Assembly: GCA_947589325.1 (NCBI GenBank)
Contig: CANQAM010000001.1
Coordinates: forward strand, 1 to 64,000
Origin: an uncultured Bacteroidales bacterium
Lineage (GTDB): Bacteria; Bacteroidota; Bacteroidia; Bacteroidales; UBA11471
DNA: 64,000 bases
Reading direction: 5' to 3'
Below the pieces are notes generated by a model, which worked only from the letters and a program-made list of their open reading frames with translations, searched no databases and was not told where the DNA came from. The translations under genes and the position numbers were made by a program. Shown piece after piece: positions 12,139 through 56,865 of this stretch (position 1 is its first letter; the number at the start of each line of letters is the position of its first letter).

Positions 12139-12275
12139 CGACTTTTTGCTCTAATTTCCCCGCTCTTTTCCGAATATTGCTTCCTTTTCTTTATTTTTTA
12201 GGGAAAAGCAGAGATTTTATTAAATTTATGTAATTGTTAAACTATTAAAAATCTTAGGGTTATATCAATCGAAAG

Positions 12276-12307
12276 TATTGTCGGTTTGTTATAAAGGCGT
12301 ATATTTG
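12276..12307 (+). promoter_or_regulatory. Promoter of the 12.3-kb candidate RNA
   Basis: A -33-like TATTG (12276-12280), 19 bp of spacer and a perfect -7 TATATTTG (12300-12307) lie in a gene-free stretch. A start site near 12312 is predicted, some 65-70 nt before a strong terminator. Confidence 0.6.
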
Positions 12308-12311
12308 AGAA

Positions 12312-12379
12312 CAGTGTTTTTCATGGTATTAAATTCAGGTTACAGGGATTGGTTATCGGGAGATAATCAATCTTTTTTT
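12312..12379 (+). ncRNA. Candidate small RNA or attenuated leader transcript
   Basis: This stretch lies between metF (minus strand) and the DUF2156-GNAT gene (plus strand). It is bounded by a consensus Bacteroidetes promoter and a strong intrinsic terminator, predicting a stand-alone transcript of about 68 nt. A 22-codon ORF (ATG at 12323, TGA at 12389) runs through the terminator but has no obvious family signature. Alternatives are a long 5' leader of the downstream gene with attenuation, or chance co-occurrence. It matches no RNA family I recognise. Confidence 0.4.
12347..12379 (+). terminator. Strong intrinsic terminator with no plus-strand gene upstream
   Basis: An 11-bp stem (GATTGGTTATC with GATAATCAATC, one wobble), a GGGA loop and seven T residues form it. 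The right arm can alternatively pair over 9 bp with AGATTGATT at 12385-12393. The nearest upstream genes are on the minus strand, so this terminator serves an unannotated transcript. Confidence 0.75.
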
Positions 12380-12405
12380 GTAGAAGATTGATTTACAAAT
12401 AAAAA

Positions 12406-12422
12406 ACTCTCTTTTAGAGAGT
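12406..12422 (-). terminator. Short terminator-like hairpin facing leftwards
   Basis: A 6-bp stem ACTCTC/GAGAGT with a 5-base loop is followed on the minus strand by a run of T (A run at 12401-12405). No minus-strand gene feeds into it, so its role is unclear. It may simply be a structured part of the leader. Confidence 0.4.
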
Positions 12423-12496
12423 CGGTTGCGCCTGATGCGTTTTTTGCCGGAGCGCGAAATTTTTACTTGTCGGAACAATCGAAATAAAAATCCTTG

Positions 12497-27047: not shown

Positions 27048-28019
27048 TTAATTTTTGTATTTGATTTCCGTCTGTGCGGGGACACATCTGATATCACGAT
27101 TTTTGTTGATGCCTTCCATTTCCCACCCTGTTTTCAGATAGAGCGTTTGCAGCGTTTTCATCGGTGCACAAAGGAGCGGATAATCCCATTTACAGTTGAT
27201 TAAATTCGTGTTGGAAATATCCAATTCCTGAATCCGGTTGTAGTGGCAATACAACGTTGTCAAAGCGGTATTTTTGCTGACGTTCAATTCGGTCAGTTGG
27301 TTGTGGTAGCAATACAAATCCGTCAAAGCCGTATTTTTACTGACGTCCAATGCGGTCAGTTGGTTGTAGTAGCAATGCAAATCCGTCAAAGCCGTATTTT
27401 TACCGATGTCCAATTCAGTCAGTCGGTTATTGGTGCACCCCAAACCCTTCAAAGCTGTATTTTTACTGATGTTCAATTCTGACAGTTGGTTGCCGTCGCA
27501 ATTCAAGCCTGTTAAAGCCGTGTTTTTGCTGACGTCCAGTTCTGTCAGTAGGTTGCCGCTGCAATGAAGCCATTCCAAAAGTGTATTTTGGCTGACGTCT
27601 AATGTGGTCAATTGATTGCCATAGCAGTACAACCTCGTTAAAGTTTTATTTTTACTGAGATTCAGTTCTGTCAGTAGGTTGCCGCTGCAATCCAAAAACG
27701 TCAAAGATGTATTCTTGCTGACGTCCAATTCGGTCAATTGGTTGTTACTACAAACCAACTCTCTCAAAGCCGTGAAATTTTCAATATCTTTCAACGAAGT
27801 AATGCCCATTTCGCGGACATCGAGGTAGGTAACGGTATCTACCTCTTCGACTTCGATGACACCATTTCGGTTGCTGTCGAAATGCTCCAAACAGTATGTC
27901 GTGAAAACGGAGTCTTTCTTAAAAACGGAGTCATCGACTACATCGTCATCGTCGTCGGAGCAGGCGGCGAAAACGGCAATCGCCGCCGCGCACAGAAAAT
28001 AATGCAGGTATTTTTTCAT
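27048..28019 (-). CDS. Leucine-rich-repeat lipoprotein with an EF-hand-like loop
   Basis: 323 residues. The lipoprotein signal ends at Cys20 (FAAC), followed by an Asp run that commonly marks surface-exposed Bacteroidetes lipoproteins. Residues 48-59 (DSNRNGVIEVEE) fit the EF-hand/dockerin calcium loop at positions 1, 3, 5, 6, 8 and 12. Then come about nine 21-residue LRRs of the pattern NQLTELDVSKNTALT.LYC, with a conserved Cys in each. The C-terminal cap has two further Cys. It is probably a surface protein-binding module; the ligand is unknown. It lies 13 bp downstream of the M20 peptidase gene. Confidence 0.85.
   Translation of the reverse strand: MKKYLHYFLCAAAIAVFAACSDDDDDVVDDSVFKKDSVFTTYCLEHFDSNRNGVIEVEEVDTVTYLDVREMGITSLKDIENFTALRELVCSNNQLTELDVSKNTSLTFLDCSGNLLTELNLSKNKTLTRLYCYGNQLTTLDVSQNTLLEWLHCSGNLLTELDVSKNTALTGLNCDGNQLSELNISKNTALKGLGCTNNRLTELDIGKNTALTDLHCYYNQLTALDVSKNTALTDLYCYHNQLTELNVSKNTALTTLYCHYNRIQELDISNTNLINCKWDYPLLCAPMKTLQTLYLKTGWEMEGINKNRDIRCVPAQTEIKYKN
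27230..27740 (-). repeat. 63-bp tandem repeats encoding the LRR array
   Basis: About eight to nine in-frame repeats of 63 bp each encode a 21-residue LRR. Neighbouring units share long identical stretches at the DNA level, such as the recurring CAGTTGGTTG and GTATTTTTAC blocks on the plus strand. Confidence 0.8.
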
Positions 28020-28032
28020 GGTATTATCGTAT

Positions 28033-54684: not shown

Positions 54685-54714
54685 TAAAGATATATCGAAT
54701 AATAGGATAATACC

Positions 54715-56865
54715 ATGAAAAAAACAACCGTTACGGTTTTGGCAACGATGTTGCTCATTACTTTGTTTTCATGCCAAAGTAGTGAAAATGAGCGAATTGA
54801 TAGAGTTGCCGTCGTACAACGGAATTGCCCTGTAAACACATCGTTCGATGCCTTGTCGTCGTTGTCGGTAGGCAATGGCGAGTTTGCTTTTACGGTCGAT
54901 GCCACAGGTTTGCAAACCTACCCCGAGCTGTACAGCGCAGGCGTGCCGCTGGGCACACAATCGCAATGGGGGTGGCACTCGTTCCCGAATCCTGAAAAAT
55001 ACCGTTTTGAAGAAACCCTGAAACCCTATAATTTCCGCGGACATGAAGAGCTTTATTCCGTACAGTTCAATGAAGACGGGCGGAACAAAGAGGCTGCCAA
55101 CTGGTACCGTGTCAATCCCCACCGCCTCCATTTGGGAGCAATCGGTCTGGAATTGATGCGTGACGGGAAAAAAGTCGAAGCCGGCGAACTCTCCGGCATC
55201 GACCAGAAACTCGATTTGTGGAGCGGAACAATAAACAGCAGCTTTACCCTCGACGGACAGCCCGTAGCCGTGCAGACGGTGTGCGACGACGCCACCGATG
55301 CCGTCGCCGCCTGCATCGTTTCGCCCTTGTTGGCAACGGGCGAAGTCGCTGTAAATTTGCGCTTCCCTTATCCTACGGGCGGACACTCCGATGACGCCTG
55401 CGATTGGACGAAGCCCGATAAACACACGACCGCCATTGTAGCGCAAGACGACCATAGCGCTCTCCTCTGCCGCAAGCTCGACGAAACGACCTATTATGTA
55501 CGTCTGGCGTGGAACGGCAGCGCATCGCTTCAACAGAAAGAACCTCATTACTACGTGCTGAAACCCGCAGCGGGCGACACGCTTTCGTTTACCTGCGCGT
55601 TCACTGCCGAGATGCCCTCCGGTGCGCCGCTCGATTTTGCTGCCGCATCGGCACACGCTGCCGACTATTGGTGCAACTATTGGACGACCGGCGGCATCGT
55701 CGATTTCTCGCACTGCCGCGATTCCCGCGCTCCCGAGCTCGAACGCCGCGTCATACTTTCGCAATACCTCACCGCCATACAATGCGCCGGCTCCGTGCCT
55801 CCGCAGGAAACGGGACTTACCTATAACAGTTGGTTCGGCAAGTTCCACCTCGAAATGCATTGGTGGCACGGCGTACATTTCGCCTTGTGGGGACACCCCG
55901 AGCTGCTCGAAAAGAGCCTCGACTGGTACAAAACCGCGTACGATAATGCGTGCAGCATAGCCGCCCGTCAAGGTTTTAAGGGCGCGCGGTGGATGAAGAT
56001 GACCGACCCCTCGTCCGTCGAAGCCCCCTCCAAAGTAGGTTCGTTCCTTATTTGGCAGCAGCCACACTTTATTTATATGGCAGAGTTGATATACCGCGCC
56101 AAACCCACCGAAGAAACCCTCAACAAATATAAAGACCTCGTGGCTGCCACCGCAGACTTTATGTTCTCTTTCGCTACCTACGACGAACTCGAAGGCCGTT
56201 ACGTACTCAAAGGCGCCATACCCGCACAGGAAACCTTGCGGGCTGCCGAAACCGTCAATCCGCCGTTCGAGCTTTCCTATTGGTACTATGCTATCAGTGT
56301 GGCGCAGAAGTGGCGCGAACGTCAGGGCCTGAAACGCGACCTGCAATGGGACGAAATGCTCGACAAGCTCTCGCCGCTCGCCTATCAGGACGAAAACGGC
56401 ACCAAGCTCTATCTCGCAGCCGAAACGGCTACCGATACCTATAAAGATATACGCTTCACGTCCGACCACATGGCAGTGCTCGGTGCATACGGCATACTGC
56501 CCAAGTGTCCGCTCGTGCGCGAAGACATCATGCACAACACGCTCGACTGGGTGTGGGACAATTGGAATTGGGGCAAAACGTGGGGTTGGGACTTCGCCAT
56601 GACCGCCATGGACGCCGCCCGTTTGGGCGACACCGACAAAGCCGTCGGCGCCCTGCTCATGGATAAGCGCACCAACACCTATCTCCCCAACGGTCACAAT
56701 TACCAAGATACCCGCCTGCGCATCTATTTGCCCGGTAACGGAGGTCTCCTTACCACTGTGGCGATGATGTGTGCCGGCTGGGACGGGCACGAAAGCGGTA
56801 ATCCCGGATTTCCCGACGACGGAAATTGGGACGTCCGCTGGGAAGGTCTCGCACCGATGCCTTAA
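54715..56865 (+). CDS. Unassigned lipoprotein, probable (alpha/alpha)6 glycosidase-like enzyme
   Basis: 716 residues with a lipoprotein signal ending at Cys20 (LFSC). An N-terminal beta-rich part (LSVGNGEFAFTVDATGLQ, YRVNPHRLHLGAIGLEL) is followed by a helical part. The latter is rich in Trp, His and Tyr (FHLEMHWWHGVHFALWGHPE, KTWGWDFAMTAMDAARLG, LPGNGGLLTTVAMM). This organisation resembles GH65/GH95-type six-hairpin glycosidases, but I cannot place it in a named GH family. Glu and Asp residues in the HLEMHWWH and WGWDFAM blocks are candidates for catalysis. It is the first gene of the unit leading into FAS1-SusC-SusD, so an outer-membrane role in pectin degradation is inferred. Confidence 0.6.
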   Translation: MKKTTVTVLATMLLITLFSCQSSENERIDRVAVVQRNCPVNTSFDALSSLSVGNGEFAFTVDATGLQTYPELYSAGVPLGTQSQWGWHSFPNPEKYRFEETLKPYNFRGHEELYSVQFNEDGRNKEAANWYRVNPHRLHLGAIGLELMRDGKKVEAGELSGIDQKLDLWSGTINSSFTLDGQPVAVQTVCDDATDAVAACIVSPLLATGEVAVNLRFPYPTGGHSDDACDWTKPDKHTTAIVAQDDHSALLCRKLDETTYYVRLAWNGSASLQQKEPHYYVLKPAAGDTLSFTCAFTAEMPSGAPLDFAAASAHAADYWCNYWTTGGIVDFSHCRDSRAPELERRVILSQYLTAIQCAGSVPPQETGLTYNSWFGKFHLEMHWWHGVHFALWGHPELLEKSLDWYKTAYDNACSIAARQGFKGARWMKMTDPSSVEAPSKVGSFLIWQQPHFIYMAELIYRAKPTEETLNKYKDLVAATADFMFSFATYDELEGRYVLKGAIPAQETLRAAETVNPPFELSYWYYAISVAQKWRERQGLKRDLQWDEMLDKLSPLAYQDENGTKLYLAAETATDTYKDIRFTSDHMAVLGAYGILPKCPLVREDIMHNTLDWVWDNWNWGKTWGWDFAMTAMDAARLGDTDKAVGALLMDKRTNTYLPNGHNYQDTRLRIYLPGNGGLLTTVAMMCAGWDGHESGNPGFPDDGNWDVRWEGLAPMP

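Follow-up and report, generated by a model that had tools for sequence, protein, structure and literature searches.

The 420-bp gap between metF and a DUF2156-GNAT gene holds a promoter and a terminator in close succession, and the question it raises is whether they frame a free-standing small RNA or a leader that controls the downstream gene. The initial annotation had entertained both, and every element it described was found in the window, by which we mean the whole 64-kb stretch of DNA analysed here. On the plus strand, a putative -33 element, TATTG (12276-12280, read directly), lies 19 bp from the -7 box TATATTTG (12300-12307), which has the TAnnTTTG form of a sigma-ABfr-type promoter, and the spacer contains TTTGTTATA (12285-12293). 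A terminator hairpin at 12347-12372, supported by folding and covariation, pairs arms 12347-12357 and 12362-12372 through 11 bp (one of them G-U) around a GGGA loop (12358-12361). It runs into a tract of seven T residues (12373-12379) that was evident both by direct reading and in a terminator scan.

Identity of the RNA

We scanned the window against Rfam 15 with cmscan and identified 12314-12380 (+) as BTncRNA_FopS (RF04319; 56.0 bits, E 1.7e-5 computed against 4227 Rfam families over 64 kb). The search had been proposed in the initial annotation, and this was the sole match in the window above a gathering score. The FopS gathering score is 56 bits, so the copy sits exactly at threshold. The alignment is full-length, covering model positions 1-71 of 71, and nt 1-18 match the FopS consensus with no differences. 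The linker 5' of the hairpin is 2 nt shorter; most copies have a longer one. Homology places the RNA start at 12314 and gives a length of 67 nt, close to the 65-70 nt first estimated. When folded alone, the RNA leaves its first 30 nt unpaired ahead of the terminator hairpin. The region around the unit folds at z = -2.28, and this value together with the RF04319 match (E 1.7e-5) places the unit above chance. A sub-threshold Plastid-psbA-3 match in the window was taken as chance.

We conclude, with a probability of roughly 93%, that the sequence from 12276 to 12380 makes up an entire gene encoding a trans-acting small RNA, about 67 nt long, of the FopS family. Transcription would begin at a sigma-ABfr-type promoter of its own and stop at a Rho-independent terminator. 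The gene assignment rests on sequence, homology and covariation. The small RNA first proposed for this gap thus acquires a family name, and the window RNA adds one member to a family that has already been described. FopS has 14 members in Bacteroides thetaiotaomicron, migrates at 65-70 nt on the published northern blot, and is induced by bile salts (PMC11697453). The window copy resembles the family in length, in having its own sigma-ABfr-type promoter and Rho-independent terminator hairpin, in its unstructured 5' seed with consensus nt 1-18, and in being one of several paralogues in its genome. It differs in its shorter linker, its score at threshold, and its setting among four copies rather than the 14 of B. 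thetaiotaomicron.

The 5' R1 seed is also found in GibS (RF04182), a related, longer small RNA with two seeds, and the GibS model aligns to the window RNA at 26.5 bits. The GibS gathering score is 115 over 142 positions, however, and no GibS exceeds the cut-off in this genome. GibS is about twice as long, carries a second seed, and uses another promoter motif (PMC11697453), whereas the window RNA ends at its terminator after 67 nt. We therefore give almost no credence to the reading that the RNA is a GibS. A GibS-like match elsewhere in the genome (C3:118137-118280, 24.5 bits) is for the most part complementary to a gene start carrying TAATACTATGAAAAA and is unconvincing as a small RNA.

Conservation of the unit and its terminator stem

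FopS copies are present in all seven genomes of the genus (G000-G006). In the genome that contains the window (G000; 2.35 Mb, 91% complete), four copies exceed the cut-off and two further candidates are weak. The window copy scores lowest of the four, the others reaching 77.3, 75.7, and 58.9 bits. We compared the metF-DUF2156 gap with those of the two nearest sister species (L033 and L034) and found 21 variable sites among its 420 bp. None fall within the 121 bp of promoter and RNA (12260-12380); all 21 belong to the remaining 299 bp. The initial annotation had stated that its proposal would be refuted if close relatives had lost both promoter and hairpin; we looked for such loss, and the unit is retained.

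More distant congeners separate the unit from its surroundings. In two of them (L026 and L027), a short-linker FopS lies divergent to metF, whose protein is 85% identical in this comparison, and has a different gene downstream. In a third (L024), the copy occupies an unrelated site, and its 3-kb locus has no match to metF or DUF2156. Although the flanking sequence has diverged, all three retain TTTGTTATA, the -7 box, GAGAACA, and the RNA. These observations bear on the possibility that the unit is a transcription attenuator or leader for the DUF2156-GNAT gene, in which an arm of the terminator would switch to a 9-bp pairing with AGATTGATT (12385-12393). In the window and both sister species that gene does follow the unit in the same orientation, but in L024, L026, and L027 it does not. 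AGATTGATT is absent from the orthologues in those three genomes and in the window is located beyond the terminator and the 3' end of the RNA; the unit also matches a family of stand-alone small RNAs. Retention of the unit while its flanks diverge indicates that the promoter and RNA together are the conserved object and effectively excludes a DUF2156 leader, a reading that we regard as very improbable. A terminator-like hairpin on the minus strand (12405-12423), between FopS and the DUF2156 gene, fares no better: the 20 bp at 12406-12425 contain five variable sites between near-identical species. Lack of conservation rules out both this third hairpin and the AGATTGATT pairing as functional parts. 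The minus-strand hairpin is disrupted in one sister species.

Of 53 distinct related promoters, 52 have a TAnnTTTG -7 box 12-14 nt 5' of the RNA, although this motif occurs only about 2.7e-4 times per strand-position in the window. The TATTG at -33 is present and identical in the sister species but only weakly kept in more distant orthologues. What is kept instead is TTTGTTATA, which is invariant in the window, L033, L034, L024, L026, and L027.

The terminator stem provides a further line of evidence. Across 20 copies from the genus, 97.1% of the cells in the 11-bp stem are paired, and five pairs have changed on both sides, so compensatory changes do occur in the 12347-12372 stem. The covariation score of the stem is 0.422 versus 0.220 in shuffled alignments (0 of 500 reach the observed value), and slid versions of the stem all score far lower. 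We also considered that the window copy could be a decayed duplicate, a nonfunctional pseudogene, as its score is the lowest of the four over-threshold copies and its linker is 2 nt short. This is highly unlikely given the compensatory changes in the stem, the contrast between 0/121 changes in the unit and 21/299 across the remainder of the gap, and the recurrence of the short-linker form in three congeners at greater distance, where it again has the -7 box, the seed, and the hairpin.

A second form of FopS also occurs in the genus; its 5' end, ATGTTTTTTCATAGTATTA, carries a CATAG seed like that of GibS, and its -33 element is of the TTTGG type. It was found at L003 (C13:10924-10995 in the same genome as the window), L020-L023, L025, and L029, and it represents seed diversification among paralogues. 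A start codon at C3:118263-118277 in the same genome (L103), with TAATACTATGAAAAA, exactly matches the CATAG-type seed of the FopS copy on C13 and is possibly a target of that paralogue.

Predicted targets of the seed

The seed core of the window RNA (nt 4-18, UUUUUCAUGGUAUUA, 12317-12331 on the plus strand) corresponds to the seed region R1' of PMC11697453. It is antisense to UAAUACCAUGAAAAA and exactly complementary to UAAUACC-AUG-AAAAA. The exact 15-mer occurs at five sites in the whole genome: three FopS genes and two start codons, both in the window. These two are thus the only exact sites genome-wide outside FopS genes. The reversed control pattern has no occurrences, and the window expectation for the 15-mer at up to two mismatches is 0.10. 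One candidate site (28012-28026, minus strand) is perfectly complementary over 15 nt and spans the start codon of a gene for an LRR lipoprotein (27048-28019, minus strand). The other, also an exact complement (54708-54722, plus strand), covers the start codon of a lipoprotein gene (54715-56865) that heads an apparent operon with a fasciclin gene, a SusC gene, and a SusD-like gene. Searches of Pfam, NCBIfam, and PDB sequences gave no match for the 716-aa product of this gene. Its site is found in both sister species, a recurrence that carries little weight because the proteins are 95-96% identical.

In B. thetaiotaomicron, the 5' end of FopS-10 pairs with the start region of the susC gene BT_3983 and with other genes heading polysaccharide-utilization operons; in vitro, FopS-10 blocks translation, an effect that RbpB relieves (PMC11697453). 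By analogy with FopS-10, and given the exact complementarity here, the unstructured 5' end would present a seed antisense to UAAUACC-AUG-AAAAA in the start regions of exported-protein genes. Pairing at the start codon would then block translation initiation of surface-glycan genes, including the gene at 54715 that heads the SusC/SusD operon. We asked how FopS pairs with SusC genes more broadly. Duplex energies at 19 SusC starts exceed those of shuffled FopS (2/500), but these starts show no stronger duplex energy than other gene starts (P = 0.38). Targeting of the 54715 and 28019 genes therefore stays a specific prediction drawn from the sequence, and a wider target set is not established. The exact candidate targets lie in the same window as the FopS gene itself.

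Promoter palindrome, RbpB, and the range of FopS

In 24 of the 53 FopS promoters we identified a palindrome, ATGTT-N4-AACAT (at most one mismatch), whose start lies at a nearly constant distance, between -34 and -37. Shuffled promoters averaged 0.64 such cases and never exceeded 4, a control that overstates significance because some of the 53 promoters are related by descent, though many families are represented. The palindrome is absent from the FopS promoter in the window, unlike many other FopS promoters. Promoters that carry it include one in the same genome (C8:11838-11851, in L001) and those of L008, L009, L013, L018, L070, L074, L075, L077-L079, L081-L083, L086, L089, and L091. A search of this genome returned six palindromic sites, only one of them at a fopS gene; the reversed control returned four, and no regulon can therefore be derived from the search. 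We regard ATGTT-N4-AACAT as a candidate operator for a regulator of FopS. The main text of PMC11697453 leaves the activating regulator of FopS open and mentions neither palindrome nor operator, and the palindrome appears to be new. Being common to many fopS promoters, it offers a handle on that regulator.

FopS from B. thetaiotaomicron associates with RbpB, whereas the genus of the window has no detectable RRM_1 protein and hence no detectable form of this known antagonist. A profile search found no RRM_1 (RbpB-type) protein in the 91%-complete genome containing the window, and at E 0.1 all seven genomes of the genus were negative. A query built from four aligned Bacteroidales RRM proteins gave short matches only (E 0.27 and 0.75). 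We surveyed 295 genomes sampled across the order Bacteroidales and found RRM_1 in 196. FopS was present at E <= 1e-6 in 56 genomes from 20 families, and 24 of these 56 have no detectable RRM_1. In five families (f1, f22, f26, f42, and f111), among them that of the window genome, RRM_1 is missing from every FopS-bearing genome sampled. These absences rest on detection at the level of profiles, and some of the genomes are incomplete. The RbpB antagonist thus seems to be absent from the window genus and from five families. Conservation of FopS is described within the Bacteroidaceae in PMC11697453; its occurrence in at least 20 Bacteroidales families exceeds that range and appears to be new.

We tentatively propose, at somewhat less than even odds, that FopS works without RbpB in whole lineages of Bacteroidales, and that a separate transcription factor may read ATGTT-N4-AACAT at many, though not all, fopS promoters. 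If so, the published circuit, in which the small RNA represses and RbpB relieves, would not be general to FopS. The presence of FopS in a genus with no detectable RbpB-type protein makes the need for an RNA-binding partner testable.
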